A DNA stretch of 64,000 nt from Microvirga sp. TS319 (GTDB lineage: Bacteria; Pseudomonadota; Alphaproteobacteria; Rhizobiales; Beijerinckiaceae). The stretch spans positions 851,501 to 915,500 of the forward strand of contig NZ_JBGGGT010000001.1 in NCBI RefSeq assembly GCF_041276405.1. Reading direction: 5' to 3'. Every line of letters starts with the position of its first letter. Within the stretch, counting starts at the first letter, position 1. The notes under the pieces are model-generated. The model had not been told where the DNA came from. It worked only from the letters and a program-made list of their open reading frames with translations, and did no database searches. Shown piece after piece: positions 1 through 15,389 of this stretch. The translations under genes and the position numbers were made by a program.

Positions 1-71
1 CAGAAAGCCGCGTCGCCGCAAAGATCCCGGTCAGGGAGCGCGGCAATGAGTCTGAACAAGCCAATGGGTCC

Positions 72-755
72 TCAATGCTTGTTTCCACCCGCTAAAGCAG
101 TCTGGGCCAAGTTTGCGACTACCTGCACATGGTCCATGCTCGCATCGTAAGCTGCGTCACCGTCCCCAGCCTCAATGGCTGCCAGAATGCGGCGCATCTC
201 GGCGATTGCGGCTGCTCCACGTCCTGGTGTGGAGATGGTAATGGACCGAAGATGATTGATGCGGGCATTCAACGACTTGACCACGTCCCAGGCAACGTCC
301 TTACCGGCGCAGGAGAAGAGAGCCTCGTAAAAGTCCGTCGTGCCTTTCAGAACGTCCCGGGCATTGCCAGAGGCGAACGCCTGCTCGTTGCGGTCAATTG
401 CCTTACGGAGGCGTTCAATATCAGCAGGCATTGCCTTGTCTGCACAAGCTCGGGCAGCCTCTGCCTCAAGCAAAGCGCGGATTTCATAAATCTGCGACGC
501 TTTGGTCGGATCCGGGCGGGCGACAGCCGGGCCCTGTTGCGAGGCGCTTTCGACAAGCCCTTCCGCCTCGAGATGCCGCAAGACCTCACGGACGACCGTC
601 CGGCTGACCCCCAGCCGCTCGCAGAGGGTGCGCTCCACCAACCGCTCGCCTGGCCGGAAGTGAAAGTTCAGGATGCCATCCCGCATCTTTTCCAGCGCGA
701 GTTCCCGGAGGGTCTTGGCGCTCCGGTCAATCCGCAAGCCGTGATCATCATTCAT
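72..755 (-). CDS. GntR-family transcriptional regulator, FCD subfamily
   Basis: A 227-aa DNA-binding regulator, probably the local repressor of the divergent catabolic operon starting at 891. Residues about 14-78 form the winged helix-turn-helix (GERLVERTLCERLGVSRTVV region), and residues about 85-215 are an all-helical FCD ligand-binding domain. I chose the ATG at 755 rather than upstream starts in the same open frame because GAGGGAC sits just before it and the protein then begins right before the HTH. Two positions that are usually histidine metal ligands in FCD domains seem to be replaced (DFYEALF instead of a D-x-x-FH pattern; EMRRIL instead of EHxxIL), so effector binding may not be metal dependent. 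A perfect palindrome of the kind bound by this subfamily lies in the shared promoter region. The effector is unknown but is likely the operon's substrate. Confidence 0.88.
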   Translation of the reverse strand: MNDDHGLRIDRSAKTLRELALEKMRDGILNFHFRPGERLVERTLCERLGVSRTVVREVLRHLEAEGLVESASQQGPAVARPDPTKASQIYEIRALLEAEAARACADKAMPADIERLRKAIDRNEQAFASGNARDVLKGTTDFYEALFSCAGKDVAWDVVKSLNARINHLRSITISTPGRGAAAIAEMRRILAAIEAGDGDAAYDASMDHVQVVANLAQTALAGGNKH

Positions 756-834
756 ACTCTGTCCCTCACTGAAAGCAGCCGGTTGCTCCCCTACACGAAA
801 ATTCCATACGGCTGAATTTCTGTGTTGCTCTCCG

Positions 835-844
835 TGGTATACCA
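835..844. promoter_or_regulatory. Putative GntR/FCD operator palindrome
   Basis: TGGTATACCA is a perfect 10-bp palindrome in the 135-bp divergent intergenic region between the GntR gene (start 755) and the DUF1185 gene (start 891). FCD-type GntR regulators typically bind TGGnnnnCCA or TnGTATACnA palindromes, so this is the natural operator for the neighbouring regulator. It is followed by TATTATGG, which might overlap a -10 element. The assignment to this regulator is inferred from position. Confidence 0.6.
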
Positions 845-890
845 TATTATGGTCTTCCATATCCAGCGACAACAGACGCCGAGGCACGCA

Positions 891-1478
891 ATGACAGCGG
901 GAATCCGTAAGGTTGTTACCTATGTCGAAGAGACGTTCGTCGAGGGTGGCCGCACGGCTCCCCAGCCGCTCAAGCTCTTCGCCGCCGCTGCCGTGGTCAC
1001 GAATCCCTGGACCGGGCGCGGCTTCGTTGAAGATCTCAAGCCGGAAATTCACGCAGTGGCTCCTGAACTTGGCGCGTTGCTGACCAAGACGATCCTGGAC
1101 ATTGCCGGCTCGGGCGAGGCGGTCGAGGGCTACGGAAAAGCAGCCGTCGTCGGAACTTCAGGGGAGATCGAGCATGCCTCGGCCCTGATCCATACCCTTC
1201 GGTTCGGCAACCACTTCAGAAAGGCCGTCGGAGCAAAGAGCTATCTCAGCTTCACGAACACCCGTGGAGGGCCGAACTGCCCTGTGGTGATCCCGCTCAT
1301 GCACAAGAATGACGAGGGCATGCGATCGCACTATCTGACCATTCAGTTCTCGATCCTGGATGCGCCCGCTCCGGACGAAATCGTCGTGGCGCTCGGGGCG
1401 TCGATTGGCGGTCGACCGCATCACCGCATCGGCGACCGATACGAGGATCTCAAGGAACTGGGTGGCACCGATGTCTGA
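891..1478 (+). CDS. DUF1185 (PF06684) amino acid synthesis family protein
   Basis: A 195-aa protein with the hallmarks of PF06684: it opens MTAGIRKVVTYVEETFVEGG and has a central stretch around GYGKAAVVGTSGEIEHASAL and the LSFTNTRGGP segment. Known structures of the family show a chorismate-mutase-like trimeric fold; its reaction is not established despite the 'amino acid synthesis' name. The ATG at 891 has GAGG upstream and lies 47 nt after the operator palindrome; an open frame runs further upstream across the operator and is rejected. It is the first gene of the operon, and its stop overlaps the start of the next gene. The context suggests a role in breakdown of the operon's substrate (inference). 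Confidence 0.85.
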   Translation: MTAGIRKVVTYVEETFVEGGRTAPQPLKLFAAAAVVTNPWTGRGFVEDLKPEIHAVAPELGALLTKTILDIAGSGEAVEGYGKAAVVGTSGEIEHASALIHTLRFGNHFRKAVGAKSYLSFTNTRGGPNCPVVIPLMHKNDEGMRSHYLTIQFSILDAPAPDEIVVALGASIGGRPHHRIGDRYEDLKELGGTDV

Positions 1479-2337
1479 CGCTGACACCCTGGTTCATCAT
1501 CTCCGCGGGAAGGCAGCGGGGTCGACCCGCTACCTTCGGAGCGGACAGGGTGATCCGGTGATCCTTATTCACGGGGTCGGAATGGCGTCGTCGATCTGGG
1601 CGCCGCAGCTGGCGGCGCTGTCCACCGACTTCGACGTTATAGCCTATGACATGCTTGGCCATGGCGGCTCGAGCCTCCCTCCTGAGAATGCGCGACTGTC
1701 AGATTACTCCGATCAATTGCTCAGCCTGATCGAGGTTCTGGGTTTGCAGCGCCCGCAAATCGTTGGCCATTCAATGGGAGCCCTGGTGGCGCTTGAGTTC
1801 GCGCTCACCCACCCGACACGCCCCGCAGGCGTAACAGCGCTCAATGCTGTATACTGCCGGACGGCCGAGCAACGGAACGCAGTCTTGGGCCGGGCCGAGG
1901 CTCTCGAACGCGCGGGCGAGTTGGGCTCGCATGAGGGCACCATTGCCCGCTGGTTCGGGAACCCGGTCCCGACAGAGCTGACTAGGGAGGCCGACCTCGT
2001 GCACAGCCTCCTGACATCCGTCGATCCCTTGGGTTATTCCCGCACCTATCGCCTCTTTGCACAATCCGATGAGGTACATAAGGGACGGCTTGAGGGCCTT
2101 GCCGTGCCGGCATTGTTCATGACTGGGGAGTTCGATCCCAACTCAAGCCCGGCTATGTCGCAGGCGATGGCCGAGGCAGCGCCCCAGGGGCGGTGCGAGA
2201 TCATTCCCCGTGTCCGCCATATGATGGCTCTTACCGATCCCGATGAAGTCAACATCCGGCTCAAGACGTTCGTGGCGAGTGTCTCGCGAGGGCAGGGGCA
2301 TAACGTCGTCAGCAGACCAAGCGGAGTACAGCCATGA
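1471..2337 (+). CDS. Alpha/beta hydrolase
   Basis: A 288-aa cytoplasmic alpha/beta-hydrolase fold enzyme. The oxyanion-hole motif HGVG is at residues 34-37, the nucleophile elbow GHSMG places the catalytic serine at 101, the acid is probably Asp222 (GEFDPNSS) and the base is His250 (RVRHMMAL). The start overlaps the last codons of the DUF1185 gene, and its stop overlaps the next start as ATGA, so translation is probably coupled on both sides. The length matches ring-fission hydrolases and simple esterases, so it may cleave an ester, lactone or C-C bond in the product of the downstream monooxygenase. The substrate cannot be read from sequence. Confidence 0.88.
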   Translation: MSDADTLVHHLRGKAAGSTRYLRSGQGDPVILIHGVGMASSIWAPQLAALSTDFDVIAYDMLGHGGSSLPPENARLSDYSDQLLSLIEVLGLQRPQIVGHSMGALVALEFALTHPTRPAGVTALNAVYCRTAEQRNAVLGRAEALERAGELGSHEGTIARWFGNPVPTELTREADLVHSLLTSVDPLGYSRTYRLFAQSDEVHKGRLEGLAVPALFMTGEFDPNSSPAMSQAMAEAAPQGRCEIIPRVRHMMALTDPDEVNIRLKTFVASVSRGQGHNVVSRPSGVQP

Positions 2338-3272
2338 CCTCCACCGTCGGCATCGATTCAAAGAGTTTCCGTCAGGCGCTTGGCGCGTTCCCCACGGGCG
2401 TCACCATCGTGTCGACGCTCCAGGAGGATGGCCAGCCTCGCGGGTTTACGGCGAACTCTTTTACGTCAGTTTCGCTCGATCCGCCGCTCGTGCTGGTCTG
2501 CATCGGCAAGACGGCGTCGAGCTATCCGGTCTTCTCGGAGGCTCCCCACTTCTCTGTCACCGTATTGGCGGAAAGCCAGAAGGATGTCTCGAGCCTGTTC
2601 GCTTCCAAGTCGCCGGACAAGTTCTCCAGCGCGAGCTGGCAACGCGGCCCAGCGGGAAGTCCCGTGATTGAGGGGGCGGCAGCCTGGTTCGACTGTCGGC
2701 GCCATCAGGTAGTCGATGCTGGCGATCACATTATCCTGATCGGCGAGGTTGTTGGCTTTAGCCATTCCAATGCCAGCCCGCTGGGATACTGCCGGGGCGC
2801 TTATCTCACCTTCAGTCTCTCGCAGGACGCGGTCGCTGCCGCAGGTCACAGGACCCTGGTCGGCGCCATCCTTGAGAAGGGTCGCTCCATTCTGTTCCTC
2901 GAAAGCGCAGATGGGTCCCTCCAGCTTCCCACCGGAAACGCGCTTGGACCGGTGTCAAATGACAAGAGCCTCCATGGCGTTCTCAGGCGCCTCGGCATCG
3001 AAGCCGAGCTGAATTTCCTGTTCGCTGTCTTCGAGGATCCACGAGCCGAAGCGGGATCGACATCAATCTATTACCGCGGTTCCATCGACGGCGTTCCGGC
3101 TGATGAAACGAGGCTTCGTCTCGTTGGGCTTGATGAGATCCCGTGGGACCGCATCAAGGATGAGGCCGTGCGCTCAATGCTCGGCCGCTTCGTGCGCGAG
3201 CAGAACGAAGACACGTTCGGAATTTACGTCGGCGACGCCGACCATGGAACGGTGAAGGCTCTCGCCAGCTAG
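2334..3272 (+). CDS. Flavin reductase fused to a degenerate Nudix-like domain
   Basis: A 312-aa fusion. Residues about 8-165 are a flavin reductase of the HpaC/NtaB type (ALGAFPTGVTIVST, FTANSFTSVSLDPP, and GDHIILIGEVV), which uses NAD(P)H to supply reduced FMN. Residues about 170-300 look like a Nudix fold (TLVGAILEKGRSILFLE at the start and LVGLDEIPW at the end), but the Nudix box REUXEE glutamates are not visible, so it is probably not a hydrolase and may bind nucleotide or regulate the reductase. The LLM monooxygenase 31 nt downstream is the obvious recipient of the reduced flavin. The start overlaps the hydrolase stop (ATGA). Confidence 0.85.
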   Translation: MTSTVGIDSKSFRQALGAFPTGVTIVSTLQEDGQPRGFTANSFTSVSLDPPLVLVCIGKTASSYPVFSEAPHFSVTVLAESQKDVSSLFASKSPDKFSSASWQRGPAGSPVIEGAAAWFDCRRHQVVDAGDHIILIGEVVGFSHSNASPLGYCRGAYLTFSLSQDAVAAAGHRTLVGAILEKGRSILFLESADGSLQLPTGNALGPVSNDKSLHGVLRRLGIEAELNFLFAVFEDPRAEAGSTSIYYRGSIDGVPADETRLRLVGLDEIPWDRIKDEAVRSMLGRFVREQNEDTFGIYVGDADHGTVKALAS

Positions 3273-3303
3273 AGCCCAGCCACATGACCGGGAGGAAACG
3301 ACC

Positions 3304-4341
3304 ATGAAATTCTCGCTGTTCGTTCACATGGAGCGCAACGACCTTGAGAAGTCGCATGCAGAGCTGTTCAATGACTTGACGGATCTTGTGCAAACCGCCG
3401 AGGCCGGTGGCTTCGAAGCGGCCTGGATCGGAGAACACCATGGGATGGAGTTCACGATCTCGCCTAATCCATTCATTAATATTGCGTATCTCGGTGCGAA
3501 GACGAACAGGATCCGGCTCGGCACCGGAACTGTCATTGCGCCGTTCTGGCATCCGCTCCGACTTGCTGGCGAGGCGGCCATGACCGACATCGCGACCGGA
3601 GGGCGACTTGATCTTGGCATCGCACGCGGCGCGTACTCCTTCGAATACGAGCGCCTGATGCCCGGACTCGACGCATGGACCGCGGGACAGCGCATGCGGG
3701 AACTTGTTCCCACGCTCCGCAAGCTCTGGCAGGGCGACTACGCGCATGAGGGCGAGTTCTGGCGCTTTCCGACATCCACTTCGGTTCCAAAACCCGTACA
3801 GGAATCATTCCCGCCAATTTGGGTTGCGGCGCGTGACCCGAACTCGCACGACTTTGCGGTGTCCAACCGCTGCAACGTTCAGGTCACGCCGCTTGCCTCG
3901 GGAGATACCGAGGCCGCGAGCCTCATGGATCGCTTTCAGACTGCGTGCGCCGCGCATCCTGACATCCCGCGCCCGCAGATCATGCTGCTTCAGCACACCT
4001 TCGTGGCTGACTCCGCGGACGAGGCTGACCGACTGTCGAAAGATCTCAGCTCGTTCTACTGCGCGTTCGGGGCATGGTTCCAGAACAAGCGGCCGATCCG
4101 CGAGGGCTTTATCGAGCCTCTCACCGCAGAGGAGGAGGCGGCGATGGCGAACTACGCCCCCGACGTGATCCGCAAGAACCTGGTAATCGGCGAGCCGGAC
4201 GAGGTCATCAGGCGCCTGAAAGGTTATGAGGCGCTCGGCTATGACCAGTATTCGGTGTGGATCGACGGCGGAATCAGCCACGAGAGGAAGAAGAAGTCAC
4301 TTGAGCTCTTCATCCGGCACGTCCTGCCCGCTTTTGCCTGA
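3304..4341 (+). CDS. LLM-class flavin-dependent monooxygenase
   Basis: A 345-aa bacterial-luciferase-like monooxygenase (F420/FMN TIM barrel). Recognisable are MKFSLFVHMER at the N-terminus, AWIGEHHGMEF with the family's EHH, NRIRLGTGTVIAPFWHPLRLA, and GRLDLGIARG in the flavin-binding region. The C-terminal VIGEPDEVIRRLKGYEALGYDQ is typical of the family. It would oxidise the substrate with O2 and reduced FMN made by the neighbouring flavin reductase, giving a two-component system. A strong GGGAGG ribosome site precedes the ATG. The following aldehyde dehydrogenase suggests that oxygenation releases an aldehyde. Confidence 0.9.
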   Translation: MKFSLFVHMERNDLEKSHAELFNDLTDLVQTAEAGGFEAAWIGEHHGMEFTISPNPFINIAYLGAKTNRIRLGTGTVIAPFWHPLRLAGEAAMTDIATGGRLDLGIARGAYSFEYERLMPGLDAWTAGQRMRELVPTLRKLWQGDYAHEGEFWRFPTSTSVPKPVQESFPPIWVAARDPNSHDFAVSNRCNVQVTPLASGDTEAASLMDRFQTACAAHPDIPRPQIMLLQHTFVADSADEADRLSKDLSSFYCAFGAWFQNKRPIREGFIEPLTAEEEAAMANYAPDVIRKNLVIGEPDEVIRRLKGYEALGYDQYSVWIDGGISHERKKKSLELFIRHVLPAFA

Positions 4342-4361
4342 ACCCTGTACGGAGAAAGCCG

Positions 4362-5837
4362 ATGTCGCTTCCCGTTTTCCAGAATTACATTGACGGCTCC
4401 TTCGTCGACGGAGCGGAGACCTTTGAGAGCTTAGATCCGTCCACCGGCGCCCCTTGGGCTGTGATGCCTGCGGCGGGGGCGGAAGAGGTGGATAGGGCCG
4501 TGCGTGCGGCGCATCGGGCCCTGAGCGACCCCGCCTGGGCCGGGCTCACCGCGACACAGCGTGGGAAGCTCCTTTACCGGTTGGGAGATCTCATCGCGCA
4601 GCAGGCCGGCAGGCTCGCGGAGCTCGAGACACGCGACACCGGAAAGATCATCCGCGAGACGCGGGCCCAGATCGGCTACGTGGCCGATTACTATCGCTAC
4701 TATGGTGGCCTCGCGGACAAGATAGAGGGTGCCTATCTCCCGGTCGACAAGGTTGACATGGAGGTCTTCCTGCGCCGCGAGCCTATCGGCGTCGTTGCCG
4801 CCATCGTGCCTTGGAACTCTCAACTGTTCCTCTCGGCCGTAAAGCTCGGACCTGCGCTCGCAGCCGGATGCTCCGTCGTCCTGAAAGCTTCCGAGGACGG
4901 CCCAGCCCCGCTGCTCGAATTTGCCCGGCTTGTTCACGAAGCGGGTTTCCCGCGCGGCGTCGTGAACGTGCTCACCGGTTTTGGCGATACCTGCGGCAGA
5001 ACGCTGACCAGTCATCCGCTCGTTGCCCGCGTAGCCTTTACCGGCGGGCCCTCGACCGCCCGCCACGTAGTGCGCAACACGGCCGAGAACCTCGCCTACA
5101 CGACACTGGAACTCGGCGGAAAGTCCCCGGTCGTCGTGTTTGAGGATGCCGATCTCGAGAGCGCGTCGAACGCAATCGTTGCCGGCATTTTCGCAGCGAC
5201 GGGACAGAGCTGCGTTGCGGGCTCACGCCTGTTCGTCGAGCGGAGCGTCCACGACCGATTGCTTGATATTCTCGCCTCGAAAGCCAAGGCGATCCGCATC
5301 GGCGACCCGCAGGATACGGCGACAGAGATGGGGCCGCTCGCGACCGAGCGCCAGTTGCAGCATATCGAAGCCGTGATCGAGCGCAGCGTCGCCTCCGGCG
5401 CACGGGTGGTCACGGGCGGGCAAAGGCCCCCGGGCTTTCGCAGCGGTTTCTACTACGAGCCGACCATCCTGGCAGGGGTCGAGAACGAAACCCCATGCGC
5501 TGCGGAGGAGCTCTTTGGCCCGGTTCTCAGCGTTATCCCGTTTGAGGGCGAAGACGATGCAGTCGCAAAGGCGAACGATACGCCCTTTGGACTCGCGTCC
5601 GGCCTCTTCACCCGCAATCTGACCAGAGCTCATCGCATGATCCGGCGGATCCGGGCCGGCGTCGTGTGGGTGAACACCTACCGGGCGGTCTCGCCGATCG
5701 TTCCGTTCGGCGGCTATGGCCTGTCTGGCCTTGGGCGTGAGGGCGGATCCGAGGCTGTTCTCGACTATACCCGGGTCAAGTCGGTCTGGCTTCGCACGTC
5801 CGACGACCCGATCCCTGATCCGTTCGTCATGCGCTAG
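4362..5837 (+). CDS. NAD(P)-dependent aldehyde dehydrogenase
   Basis: A 491-aa full-length ALDH-superfamily enzyme that oxidises an aldehyde to a carboxylate. The oxyanion Asn152 is in IVPWNSQL, the general base Glu250 in TLELGGKSP and the catalytic Cys284 in TGQSCVAGSR. The C-terminal motif PFGGYGLSGLGREGG is also typical of the betaine-aldehyde/gamma-aminobutyraldehyde-like ALDH branch. It starts 20 nt after the monooxygenase with GGAG upstream. It probably takes the aldehyde product of this pathway; the exact substrate is not readable. Confidence 0.93.
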   Translation: MSLPVFQNYIDGSFVDGAETFESLDPSTGAPWAVMPAAGAEEVDRAVRAAHRALSDPAWAGLTATQRGKLLYRLGDLIAQQAGRLAELETRDTGKIIRETRAQIGYVADYYRYYGGLADKIEGAYLPVDKVDMEVFLRREPIGVVAAIVPWNSQLFLSAVKLGPALAAGCSVVLKASEDGPAPLLEFARLVHEAGFPRGVVNVLTGFGDTCGRTLTSHPLVARVAFTGGPSTARHVVRNTAENLAYTTLELGGKSPVVVFEDADLESASNAIVAGIFAATGQSCVAGSRLFVERSVHDRLLDILASKAKAIRIGDPQDTATEMGPLATERQLQHIEAVIERSVASGARVVTGGQRPPGFRSGFYYEPTILAGVENETPCAAEELFGPVLSVIPFEGEDDAVAKANDTPFGLASGLFTRNLTRAHRMIRRIRAGVVWVNTYRAVSPIVPFGGYGLSGLGREGGSEAVLDYTRVKSVWLRTSDDPIPDPFVMR

Positions 5838-5849
5838 GGTAGGTGAGCC

Positions 5850-6164
5850 GTGATCTACGAAATTCGCACCTATCGGCTCAGGACAGGAACGGTGCCAACC
5901 TACCTTCAACTGGTGGAGGAGGAAGGCATCGCAATTCAGAAAGAGCATCTCGGTCAGCTCGTCGGTTATTTCTTCGGCGAGATCGGGCCGCTCAACGAGA
6001 TCGTTCATGTCTGGGCCTATGCCAGCCTGGACGAGCGGGACTGCCGGCGCAGTGCGTTGGCAGCAGACCCGCGATGGCAGACGTTCCTGCCCAAGATCCA
6101 GGCCCTGATCGAGGTCATGGACAACAAAATCATGAAGCCGACCGCCTTCTCGCCCCTCGCTTGA
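5850..6164 (+). CDS. NIPSNAP family protein
   Basis: A 104-aa protein of the NIPSNAP family (PF07978), a dimeric alpha/beta-barrel fold of unclear biochemistry. Diagnostic features are the opening MIYEIRTYRLRTGTVPTYL, the GYFFGEIGPLNEIVHVWAY strand and the DPRWQTFLPK segment. The start is a GTG at 5850 preceded by TAGGTGAG, 12 nt after the ALDH stop. NIPSNAP-like proteins are often found with catabolic oxygenase genes, where they may act as small isomerases or monooxygenase-like enzymes. Here a role in the pathway is inferred from operon position only. Confidence 0.85.
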   Translation: MIYEIRTYRLRTGTVPTYLQLVEEEGIAIQKEHLGQLVGYFFGEIGPLNEIVHVWAYASLDERDCRRSALAADPRWQTFLPKIQALIEVMDNKIMKPTAFSPLA

Positions 6165-6215
6165 GCGGACGAAAGGGATTGTTACGCCAAACAACAGCCC
6201 AATGGAGGAAGCGCA

Positions 6216-7238
6216 ATGTCCAGACTGAATGTTCTCGCCGCAAGTGCAGCCATAGCGTTGCTGGGGCTGAGCTCTGGTGCCGCTCAGGCGCAGAGCATGG
6301 TGTTCACGAGTTGGGGCGGCACGACACAGGACGCCCAGAAGAAGTATTGGGCGGAGCCGTTTACGAAGGAAACCAAGATCCGTGTCCAGCAGGACGGTCC
6401 TACCGACTACGGCAAGCTCAAGGCGATGGTCGAGAGCGGCAATGTCTCGTGGGACGTGGTCGACGTCGAGTATGACTTCGCCGTGAAAGCCGCCAAGGAT
6501 GGCCTGCTGGAGCCGATCGACTTCAATACGGTCAAGCGCGCTGACATCGATCCGCGTTTTGCCACAGACCACGCAGTTGGAAGCTTCTACTACTCGTTCG
6601 TCATTGGCTACAGCAAGGACAAGTTCGGCAGCAAGGAGCCGAAATCATGGGCCGACGTGTTCGACACACAGGCGTTTCCGGGCAAGCGCACGTTCTACAA
6701 GTGGTCGGCCCCCGGGGTGCTTGAGATTGCGCTCCTGGCAGACGGCGTTCCGGCTGACAAGCTCTATCCCCTCGACCTCGACCGTGCCTTCAAGAAGCTC
6801 GATACCATCAAGAACGATATTGTTTGGTGGTCGGGTGGAGCTCAGTCACAGCAATTGCTTGCCTCAGGCGAAGCCCCGATCGGCCAGTTCTGGAACGGTC
6901 GCCTCTATGCCTTGCAGAAGGGCGGTACAAAGGTCGGCATCTCGTGGGACCAGAACCTGACTGCGGCGGACATGCTGGTTGTGCCAAAAGGCGCGAAAAA
7001 CAAGGACGCCGCCATGAAGTTCCTAGCCTATGCGACGAGCGCCAAGCCCCAGGCAGATTTCTCGAAAGAGACGGCCTATGCGCCAATCAACGTGAAGTCC
7101 AAGGACCTGATGGACAAAGAAGTCGTGGCAACGCTCCCTGACGAGCATACGACCACCCAGATCAACCTGAACATGCAGTACTGGGCCGACAATCGCGACG
7201 CCATCGCCAAGCGCTGGTACGCCTGGCAGACCCAGTGA
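6216..7238 (+). CDS. ABC importer substrate-binding protein, spermidine/putrescine type
   Basis: A 340-aa periplasmic binding protein of the PotD/PotF kind (SBP_bac family). A Sec signal peptide covers about residues 1-26 (hydrophobic core AASAAIALLGL, cleavage after AQA). The mature start MVFTSWGGTTQDAQKKYW is typical, as are the hinge SFYYSFVIGYSKDKFG and the WSGGAQSQQLLASGE ligand region. It delivers the substrate to the two permeases and the ATPase that follow. A strong stem-loop follows the stop codon and probably lets this protein be made in excess over the membrane components. The ligand is presumably the compound degraded by the upstream enzymes, perhaps a cationic amine. Confidence 0.9.
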   Translation: MSRLNVLAASAAIALLGLSSGAAQAQSMVFTSWGGTTQDAQKKYWAEPFTKETKIRVQQDGPTDYGKLKAMVESGNVSWDVVDVEYDFAVKAAKDGLLEPIDFNTVKRADIDPRFATDHAVGSFYYSFVIGYSKDKFGSKEPKSWADVFDTQAFPGKRTFYKWSAPGVLEIALLADGVPADKLYPLDLDRAFKKLDTIKNDIVWWSGGAQSQQLLASGEAPIGQFWNGRLYALQKGGTKVGISWDQNLTAADMLVVPKGAKNKDAAMKFLAYATSAKPQADFSKETAYAPINVKSKDLMDKEVVATLPDEHTTTQINLNMQYWADNRDAIAKRWYAWQTQ

Positions 7239-7247
7239 CGATCCCAG

Positions 7248-7271
7248 GCGGCTGGCCCTGCGGCTAGCCGC
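7248..7271 (+). terminator. Stem-loop after the binding-protein gene (attenuator or mRNA stabiliser)
   Basis: GCGGCTGGCC (7248-7257) pairs with GGCTAGCCGC (7262-7271) across a CTGC loop, a 10-bp stem with one G-U pair, nine nt after the binding-protein stop. It is followed by TTCTTC rather than a T-run, so partial termination or 3'-end protection is more likely than full termination, and the operon continues into the permeases. Confidence 0.55.
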
Positions 7272-7297
7272 TTCTTCAGATCCGATGAGTGCGAGCC

Positions 7298-8173
7298 ATG
7301 TCAGTGACCCGATCGACAATCCTTCCTATGCCGCCACAAGCGGAGGCCGCTAAGCCTCGTCGTACCGGCCTCTCGGCCGTCATCCCAGCGCTGGGGTTTC
7401 TGTCTCTGTTCTTCATTGTACCGGTTGCCATGCTGCTGATCCGCAGCCTTGTGGAACCCGAACTCGGATTGCAGAACTACGCGGAGCTGTTCGGTTCGAC
7501 GACATACCTGAAGGTGTTCATGAACACCTTCATCGTTGCCGGTCTGGTGACCATCGTGACGCTCTTGATCGCCTTCCCGGTCGCTTGGTTCCTTGCCATT
7601 GCGCCGCGCGCCTGGTCGAGCCTGCTGTTTGCCGTCCTGATCCTGTCGATGTGGACGAACCTTCTTGCCCGTACCTATGCCTGGATGGTGCTGCTCCAGG
7701 GAACAGGGGTCATTAACCGCGCGCTCATGAGCATTGGGCTCATTGCCGAGCCGCTCCCGCTCATCAACAATCTCGTTGGCGTGACCATCGGCATGACCTA
7801 CATCATGCTGCCGTTCATGATCATGCCTCTCAATGCGACAATCAAGACCATCGACGCATCCGTGTTCCAGGCGGCATCGTTGTGCGGTGCGAGCCGGTGG
7901 CAGTGTCTGACCCGTGTCTTCCTGCCTCTTATCGCCTCAGGTGTGGCAGCCGGCGGCCTGATGGTCTTCGTCATGTCGCTTGGCTATTTCGTCACACCGG
8001 CCCTCCTGGGAGGCACGTCGAACATGATGCTGGCCGAGCTGATCGCGCAGCTCGTGCAATCCCTGCTCAACTGGGGTCTCGCGGGTGCGGCCGCCTTCGT
8101 CCTGCTTGCGGTCACACTGGCGATCTACGCACTTCAGATCCGCTTCTTCGGCTTCGGCCGAGCCGCGGGATAG
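7298..8173 (+). CDS. ABC importer permease, PotB type
   Basis: A 291-aa inner-membrane permease with about six hydrophobic helices, the first at roughly residues 26-48 (VIPALGFLSLFFIVPVAMLLI). The EAA-type loop is at ASLCGASRWQCLTRVFLPLIASGVAAG. It pairs with the next permease to form the channel of the polyamine-type importer. I prefer ATG 7298; a GTG nine nt upstream is an alternative, and neither has a strong ribosome site. Location just after the stem-loop fits lower expression than the binding protein. Confidence 0.9.
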   Translation: MSVTRSTILPMPPQAEAAKPRRTGLSAVIPALGFLSLFFIVPVAMLLIRSLVEPELGLQNYAELFGSTTYLKVFMNTFIVAGLVTIVTLLIAFPVAWFLAIAPRAWSSLLFAVLILSMWTNLLARTYAWMVLLQGTGVINRALMSIGLIAEPLPLINNLVGVTIGMTYIMLPFMIMPLNATIKTIDASVFQAASLCGASRWQCLTRVFLPLIASGVAAGGLMVFVMSLGYFVTPALLGGTSNMMLAELIAQLVQSLLNWGLAGAAAFVLLAVTLAIYALQIRFFGFGRAAG

Positions 8174-8182
8174 GAGAAAGCC

Positions 8183-8983
8183 ATGTTGCTCGACTTCGAT
8201 CGGCTTGGGGCACTGCGTTACGTACTCGGCGGCATCAGCCTTCTCGCGGGCATCTTCCTCCTCTTTCCCGTGGTGATGATCGTCGCGTTGTCGTTCGGAT
8301 CCTCGCAATGGCTGCAGTTTCCACCACCGGGTTGGACGCTGCAATGGTATGAGGAGCTGTTCGCTGACCCTGCATGGCTCGATGCATTCCTCACGAGCCT
8401 CGAGATTGCGGCGATCGTCACGGTCCTATCCGTTGTCATCGGATTGATGGCGTCGTTTGGCTTGACCCGGGGAACGTTCCGGGGACGCGAGGTCCTGCGG
8501 GCTCTGTTCCTGACCCCCATGATCCTGCCGGTCGTGGTTTTGGCTGTCGCACTCTATGCTTTCTTCCTGCGGCTCCATCTGAACGGCACCCTGATCGGTT
8601 TTGTCATTGCTCACCTCATCGTCGCGCTGCCGTTCTCGATTATCTCGATCACCAACTCTCTTGAACGGTTTGACAAGTCGATCGAGGACGCGGCCGTCCT
8701 GTGCGGAGCGAGCCCACTGGAAGCAAAGCTGCGGGTTACACTGCCCGGGATTCGCCTCGGGATCATGGGAGCGGCGATTTTCTCCTTCTTGGCGTCATGG
8801 GACGAGGTGGTGATCGCCATCTTCATGGCCAGCCCCGACCTTCAGACACTCCCCGTCATGATCTGGAGCACGCTCCGACAGGATCTGTCCCCCGTGATTG
8901 CCGCCGTCTCGACACTCCTCGTCGGGTTCACGGCCATTCTCATGATGTTTGCAGCCTTTATCCGCAAGGAGCCCCAGCAATGA
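8183..8983 (+). CDS. ABC importer permease, PotC type
   Basis: A 266-aa inner-membrane permease, second half of the channel. It has about six membrane segments (the first around LRYVLGGISLLAGIFLLFPVVMIVAL) and the EAA loop DAAVLCGASPLEAKLRVTLP. A TAGGAGA ribosome site lies just before the ATG at 8183, 9 nt after the preceding gene. Its stop overlaps the ATPase start as ATGA. Confidence 0.91.
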   Translation: MLLDFDRLGALRYVLGGISLLAGIFLLFPVVMIVALSFGSSQWLQFPPPGWTLQWYEELFADPAWLDAFLTSLEIAAIVTVLSVVIGLMASFGLTRGTFRGREVLRALFLTPMILPVVVLAVALYAFFLRLHLNGTLIGFVIAHLIVALPFSIISITNSLERFDKSIEDAAVLCGASPLEAKLRVTLPGIRLGIMGAAIFSFLASWDEVVIAIFMASPDLQTLPVMIWSTLRQDLSPVIAAVSTLLVGFTAILMMFAAFIRKEPQQ

Positions 8984-10068
8984 GCGCGCCATTCCTCAGC
9001 ATCAGAGGCATTCGCAAGAGCTTCGGCAGCTTCGTCGCCGTTGAGAACGTCTCTCTCAACGTGCCGAAAGGTGAATTCCTCACCTTTCTGGGCCCCTCAG
9101 GATCCGGCAAGAGCACGACCCTCTATGTCATCGCAGGCTTCCAGGAGCCGAGTGAGGGTGACGTCATGCTGGAAGGGAGGTCCATCCTCAACGTCCCATC
9201 CAACAAGCGCAACATCGGCATGGTATTCCAGCGCTATACGCTGTTCCCGCACCTGTCCGTAGCCGAGAACGTGGCCTTTCCGCTGAGAGTCCGCCGCCGC
9301 TCGCGAGCTGACATCGATGCGAAGGTTGCCGCGATGCTGAAGCTGGTCCGGTTGGATCGCTTTGCTGACCGGAAGCCTGCGCAACTCTCTGGAGGTCAGC
9401 AACAGCGTGTCGCGCTTGCTCGTGCTCTGGCCTACGATCCGCCGCTCCTTCTCATGGATGAGCCCCTCTCGGCCTTAGACAAGAAGCTGCGTGAGGAGAT
9501 CCAGTACGAAATCAAACGCATCCACACGGAAACCGGTGTCACGATCCTTTACGTGACCCATGACCAGGAAGAAGCGCTTCGGCTTTCAGATCGGATTGCC
9601 CTCTTCAACCATGGCCGGATCGAGCAGATCGGCAGCGGCCGGGACCTGTACGATGCACCACAAACCCGGTTTGTCGCCGGCTTCATCGGGAACTCCAACT
9701 TCATTCGCGCCTCCGTTCTTAAGCGCAATGGAGCAAGCGGACAGGTTTGCTGCCCCGATGGCTCGACCGTCGACGGCGTATCCCTGACCGATCTTCCGTC
9801 GGCGGAGAGTGATGCGCTGATCATGGTGCGCCCTGACCGAATCCGCTTGGTGAAGTCGCCTGATGGAGGCACAGGCCTGGCCGGGCGCGTGGCAAGCGCA
9901 ACGTTCTTGGGCGAGTCTCTCCACGTATCCGTGGAGACGCCCTGGGGGGAGGTGATTGATGTGCGCTCATCCCTGGACGTACCGGAGACCCGCGATCTCA
10001 TACCAGGCGATCGGGTCGATGTGCGCTTCAATCCCAGCGACGTGAGGGTATTCAGCCCGACGGCCTGA
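8980..10068 (+). CDS. ABC importer ATPase, PotA type
   Basis: A 362-aa ATP-binding subunit. Walker A is GPSGSGKST (about residues 37-45), the Q-loop is in MVFQRYTLFPHLSV, the signature is LSGGQQQR, Walker B is LLLMDEPLSALD and the switch histidine is in YVTHDQEEAL. A C-terminal TOBE-like regulatory domain follows (about 240-360), as in PotA, FbpC and UgpC. The start at 8980 overlaps the permease stop. It is the last gene of the operon. A longer open frame upstream, within the permease, lacks domain content and is rejected. Confidence 0.93.
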   Translation: MSAPFLSIRGIRKSFGSFVAVENVSLNVPKGEFLTFLGPSGSGKSTTLYVIAGFQEPSEGDVMLEGRSILNVPSNKRNIGMVFQRYTLFPHLSVAENVAFPLRVRRRSRADIDAKVAAMLKLVRLDRFADRKPAQLSGGQQQRVALARALAYDPPLLLMDEPLSALDKKLREEIQYEIKRIHTETGVTILYVTHDQEEALRLSDRIALFNHGRIEQIGSGRDLYDAPQTRFVAGFIGNSNFIRASVLKRNGASGQVCCPDGSTVDGVSLTDLPSAESDALIMVRPDRIRLVKSPDGGTGLAGRVASATFLGESLHVSVETPWGEVIDVRSSLDVPETRDLIPGDRVDVRFNPSDVRVFSPTA

Positions 10069-10586
10069 ACCCAGCCCGTGTGGGGAGCATGGGACTCTCT
10101 TTCGAGGCGCAGATAGAGCCGCGGCACGCCTGAGAGGTAAGCGGTTGGCCCGCTTCGGCGCTCGAGTGCCGACGTTCGTTAAGCCATCGAAACGTGAAAC
10201 TTTGACCACAACGACATGACAGAGGCTGCGGCTCATCGAAGTTGCGTTAAGTCACTCAGAAACCTTTCGGATGCGCGCGACGCGCCGCGGGAACTTGCCA
10301 CGCACGTGTCGCATCCCGAAGCGGTTGAGCCGTATCACGCCGTCTCGACGGCAAGTGGCGTAGAACATGGCTAGGTTGCCCAGGTCTTGAAGGAGCAGAG
10401 ATCGCCTGGATCATCTCTATGTCGGCACGATTGCGTGCTTTGCGCGGAAGTCCGGTAGATGGGATGCCACCTGTACTAATCGAGCCGCCGGCAATCCTCG
10501 GCGGCTTCCGCCTTGCGTGTCGATGTGCTCCGCCATTGGGCTGGTGCCCATGATACGCTACCCGTGTCTTGCTCCTGCAAGCCTGA
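10069..10586. other. Gene-free stretch between convergent genes
   Basis: No convincing gene was found. A 7-bp stem (GCCGCCG at 10484, CGGCGGC at 10499, 8-nt loop) lies here but has no T-run. A 38-codon minus-strand frame at 10252-10368 lacks a ribosome site. Confidence 0.5.
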
Positions 10587-11558
10587 TCACCGCCCGCGTA
10601 GGACGACCTTGCCCTTGCGACCGGGTTCATTGCTGGCGCGCACGGCCTCGGCAATCCGGTCGAGCGGAAAGGTTGCGTCGACCGGGAGAGTGAGCTTGCC
10701 ACTGGCGGCCTCGGCGATGACTTCCTCGAGCAGACTGCCGATCACGTCAGGCCCGAGGCCCGGCTTGGCACCCCAGAAGCCCCGAATGGTGATTTGTTGG
10801 AAGATCGCGACAGATGGCTCGATGCGGATCGGCTGGCCGCTCAGGGCGCCGAAGATGACGATCTCGCCGCCGTCTTCCACCAGGCGCGCAAGTTGCGCGG
10901 GGCCGTCCCCGCCCACAGAGTCCAGCCCGGCGCGGATCGATCCATCGCCGACAAGATCGCGCGCGCGCGCTTCCCAGCCGGGTTGCTCGGTCGACACGAC
11001 GTTGGTGATGCCGTCGGCGGCAAGCTCGGCGACCGCCGCGTCACGCCGTGCGAGGCTGAGCACGTTGATGCCCTTCTCCGCGCCGAAGCGCGACAAAAGC
11101 CGTCCGACCGCACCGGTGGCACTGTTCTGCACGAGCCAGTCGCCGCGCTGAAGGTCAAGGTCGGCCAGCACCATCTTGGCGCTGAGTGGCATGGCGATGA
11201 GCTGGCAAGCGGTCTCATCATCAACGCCGTCTGGCACAGGGCGTGCGTGCCGGGCATCGACCAGGTAATGGTCGGCCCAGGTCTGCCGGCCACCGCCGAT
11301 CACGCGCTGCCCGACCTGGAGGTTCTCGACCCCGGCGCCGAGCTCCTCCACAACGCCGAGCGCCTCCGTGCCGCCGATCGCCGGCAGCGGCGGCTTGATG
11401 CCATACCTGCCAGCCACGGTCATCAGGTCATGATTGTGGATGGGGGACAGGATCATCCGGACGAGCGCCTGCCCTGGCCCGGGCGCCGGCCGCTCACTCT
11501 CAGCAAGGGTTAACACCTGGGCCGGATCACCGAACCGTTCGAATACAATGCTGTGCAT
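10587..11558 (-). CDS. MDR-family NADPH-dependent oxidoreductase (MECR/quinone reductase-like)
   Basis: A 323-aa medium-chain dehydrogenase/reductase. The N-terminal GroES-like domain (VFERFGDPAQVLTL through IGGTEALGVVEELGAGV) lacks the cysteine and histidine ligands of zinc alcohol dehydrogenases, and the nucleotide-binding motif NSATGAVGRLLSRF is at about 148-161. This matches zinc-free trans-2-enoyl-CoA reductases and quinone reductases that use NADPH to reduce an activated double bond. The ATG at 11558 has AAGGA upstream; the longer frame to 11657 is rejected. It stands alone on the minus strand, so the substrate cannot be inferred from neighbours. Confidence 0.85.
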   Translation of the reverse strand: MHSIVFERFGDPAQVLTLAESERPAPGPGQALVRMILSPIHNHDLMTVAGRYGIKPPLPAIGGTEALGVVEELGAGVENLQVGQRVIGGGRQTWADHYLVDARHARPVPDGVDDETACQLIAMPLSAKMVLADLDLQRGDWLVQNSATGAVGRLLSRFGAEKGINVLSLARRDAAVAELAADGITNVVSTEQPGWEARARDLVGDGSIRAGLDSVGGDGPAQLARLVEDGGEIVIFGALSGQPIRIEPSVAIFQQITIRGFWGAKPGLGPDVIGSLLEEVIAEAASGKLTLPVDATFPLDRIAEAVRASNEPGRKGKVVLRGR

Positions 11559-11806
11559 GAGCAATCCTTTTGTCTGAAGAAGTTCTTCAATTAGGTTGGA
11601 TGGTCCTGAGGGCAATACTCGGAACGAGCCTGATGAAAGCCGGACTTCCGCAGGCATAGAGGAAGCTGACCTTCATAACCGGAATGCACGATGCGACTGT
11701 ATCCGCCCCTGGTGTCACGGCATTTTAACTCATCGATGTACAGTCTCACGGCTGCCTCCCGGAAGGGCTGTCGGCCTTGCTCGTGCCGCGGCCGAACTTG
11801 CAAAAC

Positions 11807-12004: not shown

Positions 12005-13159
12005 TCAGCGCAACGTTCGAAACAGCGCACGTACCTCTTGAGCCAGGGCATCGGGCTGTTCCATCGCGGCGAAGTGCCCACCATGCTCCATCACACTCCA
12101 ACGCTGAAGGTTCGTGAATGTCCGCTCGGCAATCGAGCGCGGCGGCCGGACGATCTCGCGCGGGAACTCGCAATAGCCGGTGGGGACCGTCACGGTCTCG
12201 CCTGCCGGAATCGGCCAGGGTCCATGCATGCGGGCATAGTAGGGCCAGAAGGACGAGCCAATCGCGGCCGTGAACCAGTAGAGGCTGATGTTCGCCAGAA
12301 GATGATCCCGTGAGAACACGGCCTCAATGTCCCCGCCACAATCGGACCAGGTCCGGAACTTCTCCACGATCCAGGCGGCCAGCCCGGTGGGGGAATCCGT
12401 CAGGGCAAAGGCCAAGGTCTGCGGGCGGGTGCCTTGGATCCACTGGTAGCCGGTCTCCTCCTTGAGCCAGAGCTGTAGCTCGTCCAGAAAGCGACGCTCC
12501 TCGGCTGTGGGATTGGACACCATCGCCGGGTCGCGGCGGATCGGCATCATGTTGAGGTGAATGCCGGACAGACGCTCCGGGTAGGCGTAGCCGAGACGAG
12601 CCGTGATGAACGAGCCCCAGTCGCCACCCTGGGCTCCGAAGCGGTGATAGCCCAGCACCTCGCTCATCAGCGCGGCAAAGCAATCCGCGATCGCCTCGAC
12701 CCCCAACCGCGGCTGACCGGGCGTGAACGACAGTCTATAGCCTGGCAGAGAGGGAGCAATAATCGTGAATGCATCGGCTGGATCGCCTCCGAACCGGCCG
12801 GGGCCGGTGAGGCGAGGGATCAGCTCGAGGAACTCGAAGATCGAGCCGGGCCAGCCGTGGGAGAGCAGGAGAGGGTGGGGATCAGGCCCCTTGCCCGGCA
12901 CGTGCAGGAAGTGCAGATCGATATTGTGGAGCCGCACCTTGTACTGTGGGAAGGCATTGAGCCTCGCCTCCTGGGCACGCCAGTCGAAGCGATCGCGCCA
13001 GTGGTCGACGAGGGTGCTCATGTAGGCCACATCGGTGCCGTAAGCCCAAGGATCTCCGGGGGGCTGGTCGGGGAGGCGCGTACGGTACAGGCGCTCTCGC
13101 AGATCCGTGAGGGCCACCTCCGGGACATGCAGTCTGAATGGCTGTGGTTGGCTGCTCAT
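12005..13159 (-). CDS. Epoxide hydrolase (EHN domain, alpha/beta hydrolase)
   Basis: A 384-aa epoxide hydrolase that opens an epoxide to a diol via an aspartyl-ester intermediate. The N-terminal EHN domain (PF06441) covers about residues 4-110 (FRLHVPEVALTDLRERL, TRLPDQ). The oxyanion motif HGWPGS is at 101-106, the nucleophile Asp180 in AQGGDWGS and the base His362 in HGGHFAAME. Proteins with this domain are related to juvenile-hormone and microsomal epoxide hydrolases. GGAG lies about 13 nt upstream of the ATG at 13159. No export signal is seen. The natural substrate is unknown. Confidence 0.9.
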   Translation of the reverse strand: MSSQPQPFRLHVPEVALTDLRERLYRTRLPDQPPGDPWAYGTDVAYMSTLVDHWRDRFDWRAQEARLNAFPQYKVRLHNIDLHFLHVPGKGPDPHPLLLSHGWPGSIFEFLELIPRLTGPGRFGGDPADAFTIIAPSLPGYRLSFTPGQPRLGVEAIADCFAALMSEVLGYHRFGAQGGDWGSFITARLGYAYPERLSGIHLNMMPIRRDPAMVSNPTAEERRFLDELQLWLKEETGYQWIQGTRPQTLAFALTDSPTGLAAWIVEKFRTWSDCGGDIEAVFSRDHLLANISLYWFTAAIGSSFWPYYARMHGPWPIPAGETVTVPTGYCEFPREIVRPPRSIAERTFTNLQRWSVMEHGGHFAAMEQPDALAQEVRALFRTLR

Positions 13160-13557
13160 GGGTGTCACACTCCAAGGTAGACATTCGCCCCTCTGCGGCT
13201 TCATTCATCCCTTGTCCGACCTTACTGGATCTCACCACAGGGGAGGATGGTTTCAACGTAACCTCCCTCGCTTACTGGGCAAATCGTGGATCAGCCGCAA
13301 CGCGTCACCGTTTGAGTGCCGACCGCATACGACACGTGTCGACCTCTGGAAAAACACCGAGGCTTAGATGCCGGGGGTCGCTACCACCATGAACAGGCCG
13401 GTGAACGCGAACGTTGTCGTCGGCAAAGGCATTTACTTTATCGACAGTTTCGTTCGGGCGGTTTGGCTTGCGGCGTAGACTGACCTTGCTGCCTGGATAA
13501 AGTCCTGGTCGAAACATGACACGGTAAACAGACCGGCATGAGATCGAAGGGGCGGCA
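13160..13557. other. Gene-free divergent promoter region
   Basis: About 400 bases between the divergent epoxide hydrolase and Ivy-like genes. I see no gene, hairpin or repeat I can support here; it must hold both promoters. Confidence 0.5.
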
Positions 13558-14246: not shown

Positions 14247-15389
14247 ATGTCAGATCACCAAAACGATCAGTCCAACACCTTGCCGACCTTAACCTGCGAT
14301 GAGCCGTTGGGGGTGCGGGAGCCCCAGCGCCGGATCGTGCATGTGGATCTCGATGCATTCTATGCCTCTGTCGAGCAGCGGGACAATCCGGACCTGCGTG
14401 GTAAGCCGGTCGCCGTCGGCGGATCCCGTGAGCGGGGTGTCGTGGCAGCCGCCAGCTACGAGGCCCGGCGCTTTGGGGTGCATTCGGCCATGCCCTCGGT
14501 CACGGCTCGGCGGAAATGCCCAGAGCTTATCTTCGTCAAGCCGCGGTTCGACGTCTACCGCGAGGTCTCGGGCCAGGTCCGGGAGATTTTTTACGAGTAC
14601 ACTCCTCTGGTGGAGCCGCTGTCGTTGGACGAGGCCTATCTCGATGTGAGCGAGAACCTGATGGACATCCCATACGCCACCCAGGTGGCGCGGGAGATCC
14701 GGGCCAGGATCTGGCAGGAAACGCATCTAACAGCATCGGCCGGGATCAGCTTCAACAAGTTCCTGGCCAAAATGGCGTCGGATCAAAACAAGCCGAACGG
14801 TCAGTTCGTGATCACACAGGGAACGGCGCAGGCCTTCGTCGAGGGCCTCCCAATTGGCAAGTTCCACGGCATCGGCCCGGCCACAGCCAGGAAGATGAAC
14901 GAGATCGGCATCTTCACCGGCCTGGACCTGAAGGCCCGGTCCCTGAGCTTCCTGCAGGAACGCTTCGGCAAGGCCGGAGCCCATTATTACTGGATTTCCC
15001 GCGCCGTCGATCATCGCCCGGTCCAGCCGGATCGCATCCGGAAGTCGGTGGGTGCCGAGAACACCTTCGAGAAGGATCGGGAGAGCTTCGAGGAAATGAA
15101 GGCTGCGCTCCAGCCGCTCATCGACAAGGTCTGGCGGCATTGCGAGCAGATGGGTGCGCGAGGCCGGACGGTGACGCTCAAGGTGAAATTCTCCGACTTC
15201 CAGCAGATCACCCGCAGCCATACGCTCCTCGGATATGTCGAGAGCCGGGCGGGACTCGAGCACACTGGTGTCGATCTCCTTCGACAACTGTTTCCTCTCG
15301 GCAAGAGCGTCCGCCTCTTAGGCGTGTCCCTGTCGGCTCTGAATACCGACGAAGAGCCTGAAAGTCCGCAGCTATCCCTGGAGTTGTAG
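14247..15389 (+). CDS. dinB: DNA polymerase IV (Y-family translesion polymerase)
   Basis: A 380-aa error-prone DNA polymerase that copies past lesions. The metal-binding catalytic motifs are HVDLDAFYASVE (about residues 34-45) and SLDEAYLDVS, with the steric region GVVAASYEARRFGV. The helix-hairpin-helix part is at PIGKFHGIGPATARKMNEIG, and the little-finger domain runs from about 235 to 350. The C-terminal QLSLEL resembles a beta-clamp-binding peptide of the QLxLF type. The start ATG lies 48 nt after the repeat. LexA control could be expected, but I did not identify a clear SOS box. Confidence 0.95.
   Translation: MSDHQNDQSNTLPTLTCDEPLGVREPQRRIVHVDLDAFYASVEQRDNPDLRGKPVAVGGSRERGVVAAASYEARRFGVHSAMPSVTARRKCPELIFVKPRFDVYREVSGQVREIFYEYTPLVEPLSLDEAYLDVSENLMDIPYATQVAREIRARIWQETHLTASAGISFNKFLAKMASDQNKPNGQFVITQGTAQAFVEGLPIGKFHGIGPATARKMNEIGIFTGLDLKARSLSFLQERFGKAGAHYYWISRAVDHRPVQPDRIRKSVGAENTFEKDRESFEEMKAALQPLIDKVWRHCEQMGARGRTVTLKVKFSDFQQITRSHTLLGYVESRAGLEHTGVDLLRQLFPLGKSVRLLGVSLSALNTDEEPESPQLSLEL

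Follow-up and report, generated by a model that had tools for sequence, protein, structure and literature searches.

A ten-gene operon at positions 891 to 10,068 of a 64,000-nucleotide stretch of the Microvirga sp. TS319 genome (contig NZ_JBGGGT010000001.1, positions 851,501 to 915,500; the whole stretch is termed the window below) very probably serves to import and degrade trigonelline (N-methylnicotinate), a plant alkaloid plentiful in legumes and coffee. All ten genes are on the plus strand and, together with a divergent gene for a GntR/FCD-family regulator, were confirmed to be present as described in the original prediction, which had been made from the sequence alone. Also upheld is its view of a catabolic operon under GntR control, in which the two-component oxygenase is complete and accompanied by processing enzymes. 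The substrate, which it had left unidentified, is predictable as trigonelline from synteny with, and homology to, the tgn cluster.

Correspondence to the tgn cluster

The trigonelline-degradation cluster tgn of Acinetobacter baylyi was reportedly described by Perchat in 2018. In passages of two papers, work on tgn is credited to A. baylyi ADP1 (PMC7913881) and TgnA/TgnB are said to perform ring opening as the first step (PMC8269262). The window and A. baylyi DSM 14961 have one gene order in common: GntR/FCD regulator (72 to 755, minus strand; 41% identity), DUF1185 protein (TgnF-like, 891 to 1478; 67%), alpha/beta hydrolase (TgnD-like, 1471 to 2337; 38%), flavin reductase (TgnA-like, 2334 to 3272; 39%), luciferase-like flavin monooxygenase (LLM; TgnB-like and the predicted ring-opening oxygenase, 3304 to 4341; 61%) and aldehyde dehydrogenase (ALDH; TgnC-like, 4362 to 5837; 65%). 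Their Pfam families are FCD (96.6 bits) with GntR (57.9 bits), AA_synth (PF06684, DUF1185; 237.6 bits), Abhydrolase, Flavin_Reduct, Bac_luciferase and Aldedh, respectively; Pfam was used for all genes except that of the ATPase, which was assigned by an NCBIfam scan only. Reductase, ALDH and hydrolase stand in one module with the LLM, and DUF1185 and the GntR regulator are adjacent, as membership of a tgn operon calls for. On a plasmid of Acinetobacter sp. PK01, genes for GntR, DUF1185 and hydrolase and then tgnA, tgnB and tgnC follow one another in the order of the window, the tgn names being those of the RefSeq annotation (the gene annotated tgnC is 67% identical to the window ALDH). When its LLM was used as query in a GTDB genome scan, A. 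baylyi DSM 14961 was among the best 80 of 559 relatives. Five of 120 listed LLM relatives, 74-78% identical, are named by JGI 'flavin-dependent trigonelline monooxygenase, oxygenase component'. In a tree made, as was that of the reductase, by a quick method with support from the Shimodaira-Hasegawa-like approximate likelihood ratio test (SH-aLRT) and no bootstrap, the window LLM groups with A. baylyi TgnB and apart from paralogues of 43-47% identity (100% SH-aLRT on the branch splitting off three of them).

The A. baylyi cluster differs in having homologues of the PK01 'cytosine permease', succinic semialdehyde dehydrogenase (SSADH), carboxymuconolactone-decarboxylase-like and DUF1330 genes, whereas the window has a NIPSNAP gene and an ATP-binding cassette (ABC) importer, with a strongly diverged reductase and hydrolase. 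The same ten genes in the same order, NIPSNAP and importer included, constitute the array on Sinorhizobium meliloti pSymA and an Agrobacterium-type operon (locus L266); in both, an SSADH gene is added after the ATPase gene and the reductase and hydrolase are 39-40% identical to those of the window. The pSymA reductase is SMa0793 (PDB 3RH7, identical over 311 residues). By the title of a paper by Goldmann in 1991, trigonelline genes of Rhizobium meliloti were reportedly mapped to pSym; a literature search for trigonelline together with S. meliloti SMa0 locus tags found no paper.

The arrangement is far beyond chance, its enzyme order being found again in Alpha-, Beta- and Gammaproteobacteria. 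A gene-neighbourhood search, proposed in the original prediction as a check, was made over 111 loci collected by LLM similarity (some incomplete at their ends), of which 108 reach a limit of 50% LLM identity, the other three, with 43-47% paralogues, falling below it. The genes proved to be conserved together, with DUF1185, hydrolase, reductase and ALDH all within 10 kb of the LLM in 98 of the 108. In a phylum-wide sample of 398 genomes (as in the other samples below, the genomes are related and counts therefore not independent), an LLM match is present in 23 (three of these being 39-47% paralogues) and DUF1185 in 59, including all 23; comparison of coordinates by eye places LLM and DUF1185 within 6 kb of each other in 20 of the 23 and 14-18 kb apart in the other three. 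With the Pantoea LLM as query, no relative was found in viral contigs.

The pairing of an LLM with a flavin reductase and a hydrolase, and the protein superfamilies involved, are also those of the Rut pyrimidine pathway. That a Rut-like pathway is what is encoded here is scarcely credible, given that the RutF and RutD scores (102.5 against a cut-off of 254.75 bits, and 83.7 against 238.5) led to its rejection and that no RutA is among the 25 LLM matches listed out of 31. A pyridine-type pathway was also considered and dropped, a literature search having given no paper on pyridine degradation; a similar search on homarine gave nothing on a degradation operon.

The importer and its binding protein

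Downstream of the ALDH gene and a NIPSNAP gene (5850 to 6164; Pfam 116.8 bits; its position is kept in S. meliloti, Azospirillum and Agrobacterium-type loci) are genes for a periplasmic solute-binding protein (6216 to 7238; SBP_bac_8), two permeases (7289 to 8173 and 8183 to 8983; both BPD_transp_1) and a PotA-like ATPase (8980 to 10,068). The original prediction saw in these a PotABCD-type importer. A polyamine or other amine catabolic operon, as that Pot-like annotation would have it, could draw on the ATPase score for the potA subfamily (TIGR01187, 351.2 bits), slightly under the 355.6 cut-off. It is nevertheless a highly improbable reading, as homology and context favour tgn and the three components covered by a scan with Pot equivalogs all miss their cut-offs: the binding protein (PotD, 66 against 582 bits), permease 1 (PotB, 163 against 348) and the ATPase (PotA, 346 against 482). 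The binding protein is instead of GABA (gamma-aminobutyric acid)-receptor type.

Among solved structures it best matches 4EQ7 (E 1.6e-143), followed by 9D57 and 6DGV of iGABASnFR, with 68% identity to 4EQ7 over 311 residues and 70% over 267 to Pf622 (as in 6DGV), the binding domain of iGABASnFR, a brain GABA sensor. We take 4EQ7 and 4EUO to be Atu4243, the Agrobacterium GABA receptor. For iGABASnFR2 the GABA contacts are given, in a passage of the paper on it, as W9, T13, F100, Y102 (native F), W202, R205, D228 and Y264 (PMC12999171). Their equivalents in the window protein are W33, T37, F124, Y126, W226, R229, D252 and Y288, all eight being identical to those of 4EQ7 and seven of eight to those of Pf622, whose native F102 faces Y126 here. 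Across 80 distinct relatives six of these residues never vary; at Y126, 75 have Y and five have F, and Y288 is kept in all 79 rows that reach this position.

This binding-protein family keeps close company with the oxygenase. Within the phylum sample it was found in nine genomes (E <= 1e-80), all nine among those with an LLM and with a gap of at most 7.4 kb (hypergeometric probability 1.3e-12, kinship ignored). In a Rhizobiaceae-type family sample it is present in 38 of 297 genomes, with the LLM 2.5-3.7 kb away and the order DUF1185-hydrolase-reductase-LLM-ALDH-(NIPSNAP)-importer in 38 of 38, and in one genus it is present in 16 of 39, the 15 of these that were newly fetched all having this tgn-importer order. 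With each genome counted once, 60 of 60 have the binding-protein gene no more than 7.5 kb from one for a TgnB-like oxygenase. The L266 operon (genome G1013) has as its seventh gene one whose product is identical to 4EQ7 over 312 residues, and SSADH at its end, and the pSymA array has an 85% relative of 4EQ7. Proteins 96% identical to Pf622 are encoded in two genomes, in rearranged clusters with an LLM of 53-54% and with ALDH, hydrolase, DUF1185 and shorter reductase-like genes. A plasmid collection has 231 records with the family, and positions were compared for 20 of the 60 listed: 19 are also in the LLM lists, with the two gene starts within about 6 kb in all 19, and an Aquabacterium plasmid is the twentieth.

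Importer and enzymes may then be taken to belong together, as originally proposed. The coupling is not universal, because in several Burkholderia-type loci the importer genes are in a separate run of opposite orientation. Such importer runs often carry a TgnA paralogue and, in some, a TgnD paralogue.

Since GABA and trigonelline are both degraded via succinic semialdehyde, a GABA importer could have become joined to a trigonelline operon while retaining GABA as its natural substrate. In favour of this, GABA binding is what is described for the nearest relatives of known structure, which were solved with GABA, and an SSADH gene is within 10 kb in 38 of the 108 loci, a linkage that is not universal. 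We consider this unlikely, though worth keeping in mind, in view of the 60 of 60 linkage, of the tgn paralogues in the Burkholderia-type importer runs, and of the company that GABA genes do not keep: in the 20 genomes compared, none of the gabT-family matches listed comes within 30 kb of the binding-protein gene (the nearest is about 34 kb away), and eight of the 20 lack a GabT over cut-off. Trigonelline is thus probably the natural ligand of the binding protein, to judge from its residues and gene context. We lean towards the broader proposal that Atu4243 and Pf622 belong to a family of trigonelline receptors of tgn operons, for which GABA would be merely a structural mimic, with carboxylate and cation similarly spaced. 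A literature search for trigonelline binding data on Atu4243 or Pf622 found none.

Two lineages of enzymes

Several points weigh against trigonelline as substrate. The reductase and hydrolase are just 38-39% identical to those of A. baylyi, and in the reductase tree that of the window is outside an A. baylyi-type clade of 32 rows (99% SH-aLRT), with sequences from Azospirillum, Mesorhizobium and some Burkholderiaceae that are not resolved as one clade; the window-type LLMs are likewise not a single clade. Comparison of LLMs of the two types (92 rows against 10, after removal of six ambiguous rows and three of the outgroup) gives 15 positions with fixed differences and 106 near-invariant ones common to both. 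One of the 15 is A198 (F, H or W in the A. baylyi type); it aligns two residues from a tryptophan of luciferase that we presume to be an active-site residue. Importers also vary: within 10 kb of the LLM, 25 of the 108 loci have the ABC-type binding protein but not the PK01-type permease, 37 the permease but not the binding protein and 16 both, leaving 30 without this importer and without an NCS1-type permease. For the nearest binding proteins of solved structure, GABA rather than trigonelline is the known ligand. Lastly, the operon has no SSADH gene, homologues being present only at unlinked positions, and a scan of this genome for methylamine ligase gave three TIGR03105 matches, all below cut-off.

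The divergence of reductase and hydrolase, together with the fixed LLM differences (A198 included), might mean that the window-type lineage opens a related N-heterocycle, such as another N-alkylpyridinium or nicotinate derivative. Four Caballeronia loci (L077, L078, L081 and L082), in which two tgn-type modules of different type are back to back, can be seen in the same light. Two of these loci and Burkholderia sp. H160 speak differently, for one pathway served by both types. One module is without its own reductase in L077 and without hydrolase and reductase in L082; in both, it is the A. baylyi-type reductase that is missing, next to a complete window-type set. On a draft contig of H160, the tgn operon has an LLM and ALDH 90-91% identical to those of B. 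multivorans, but what is left of its hydrolase is the N-terminal 32 residues and of its reductase the C-terminal 26; window-type hydrolase (56%) and reductase (59%) genes are in the adjacent importer run. The loss of the operon's own two enzymes beside window-type ones suggests that the latter act on the same intermediates as the canonical tgn set. On Aquabacterium olei pTB101 a tgn-type set (50% identity to the window for reductase, 51% for hydrolase and 62% for LLM; not placed in the trees) is followed by NIPSNAP, importer, porin, GntR and SSADH genes and preceded by glnT, class II amidotransferase, glxC and FMN-binding glutamate synthase genes, which we take to be the N-methylglutamate route for methylamine. 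Methylamine-type and SSADH genes are what would be expected next to a pathway releasing methylamine and succinic semialdehyde. In addition, one binding-protein family with the same contact residues accompanies both enzyme types. With these on the other side, a different N-heterocycle seems rather improbable, and trigonelline remains the preferred substrate.

Hydrolase and reductase are in one frame at seven loci (L032, L039, L100, L109, L112, L122 and L123); in two of them, both Mesorhizobium (L032, 8205 to 10,004, and L039, 8208 to 9995), they are annotated as one gene for a protein of about 600 residues. A paralogous module, with an LLM 43-47% identical to that of the window, occurs on Agrobacterium fabrum pAt (L035, 7466 to 13,255) and at L036, L141, L180 and L182. 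It comprises reductase, ALDH, LLM and hydrolase genes with DUF1185 nearby and sometimes carboxymuconolactone-decarboxylase-like and NIPSNAP genes, and on pAt has a ProX-type glycine betaine importer in its vicinity. Perhaps it performs the same chemistry on another betaine or N-heterocycle.

Proposed pathway and its enzymes

Gene content, order, homology and conserved residues were established directly, and from these the reactions, ligand and regulation are inferred. The periplasmic protein (6216) would capture trigonelline, with Arg for the carboxylate and Asp plus an aromatic cage for the N-methylpyridinium, and pass it on to the ABC importer. Reduced flavin for the LLM oxygenase (3304), which would open the pyridinium ring, would come from the flavin reductase (2334). 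Steps after ring opening follow general knowledge of the trigonelline pathway and RefSeq product names: the ALDH (4362) would oxidise the ring-opened hydroxybutyrolactone/aldehyde, and the hydrolase (1471) may remove the N-formyl/N-methyl part to give succinic semialdehyde, methylamine and formate. An unlinked SSADH could then oxidise succinic semialdehyde, as a tgn pathway calls for, homologues of 56% and 55% being encoded elsewhere in the genome. With the large PK01 sarcosine-oxidase-type subunit as query, one 34% homologue was found.

The hydrolase has a GHSMG serine, S100, and D221 and H249 (with base 1474 as the start of numbering), presumably its catalytic triad; at least 95% of 116 rows retain these residues. 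In the reductase an N-terminal reductase domain is followed by a C-terminal domain (residues about 172-302) to which no Pfam family was assigned and which, in a structural model, matches the Nudix fold across its length. The HPAH reductase C1 (5ZYR) likewise has a related reductase domain and then an extra C-terminal region, which we take to be MarR-like, whereas that of the window reductase is of Nudix fold.

Regulation and operon layout

A perfect palindrome, TGGTATACCA, is at 835 to 844, between the divergent regulator and DUF1185 genes, with no second copy in the window. Of 151 regions examined (some loci being counted twice), 100 have an exact copy no more than 260 bases ahead of DUF1185, and of 5000 windows of 260 bp drawn at random from these loci 1.2% have one, for which reason it is likely the operator of the GntR protein. 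The latter would repress from this site until an inducer arrives.

Corrected starts are 1471 for the hydrolase, 8980 for the ATPase and, most likely, 755 for the regulator. Of the four-base overlaps originally reported at several joints, two are true (2334-2337 and 8980-8983), and that between DUF1185 and hydrolase is, with the start at 1471, of eight bases. As no sigma-70-like promoter was found in positions 1 to 10,700 and terminator-like matches are at the chance level (8 against 7.8 expected from shuffled sequence), it is from gene spacing that a single transcript may be inferred. Downstream, as read by eye, are what look like quinone-oxidoreductase-type (10,587 to 11,657, minus strand), epoxide hydrolase (12,005 to 13,204, minus) and DNA polymerase IV (14,247 to 15,389, plus) genes with no obvious tie to the operon.

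DUF1185

The DUF1185 protein has a Bacillus chorismate-mutase-like fold, with PDB relatives 2QTP and 3BYQ. Its occurrence beside these enzymes, originally held to be a context that could define the family, is not new, because the A. baylyi homologue is already called TgnF in a passage of PMC7913881. There it is said to stimulate oxidation of succinic semialdehyde, an effect not seen, according to the same passage, with the DUF1185 homologue of that study. A crystal paper could suggest no more than a role in amino-acid metabolism (PMC2954203). Tandem pairs of DUF1185 genes occur in several genomes that gave no LLM match (e.g. G194:C11:29790-30895, G382:C31:43639-44744 and G339:C1:108531-109633), and for this reason the family probably has at least one further role.

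Distribution and wider meaning

At E <= 1e-60 the LLM is absent from 36 of 36 genomes of the same genus, and in a family sample it was found in 12 of 298: that of the window, four at 61-75% and seven 43-46% paralogues. Such a distribution suggests that the operon was acquired horizontally. In the plasmid collection, DNA from near the operon has its best matches in Microvirga records (up to 90% over 5% of the query), as expected for a Microvirga host.

The trigonelline pathway itself is already known. The link to this importer is new as far as the literature check reached, a check that did not cover Perchat 2018 and Planamente 2012; in open-licence literature no paper combining trigonelline with Atu4243 or iGABASnFR was found. 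What is provided is a predicted substrate for an operon that is widespread and has an importer at times annotated for polyamine transport, and a connection between bacterial GABA sensing and the catabolism of trigonelline. Work on the function of DUF1185/TgnF can also draw on the natural gene losses and duplications described above. The receptor prediction is quickly testable with existing reagents (iGABASnFR2 and purified Atu4243). If it is correct, iGABASnFR sensors should respond to trigonelline, and users of these brain sensors would gain a cross-reactant to check. The Atu4243-type GABA receptor has been linked to Agrobacterium behaviour, and its natural role would then be a changed one: GABA uptake by Agrobacterium, and the quorum quenching linked to GABA, would ride on an importer for a plant alkaloid.

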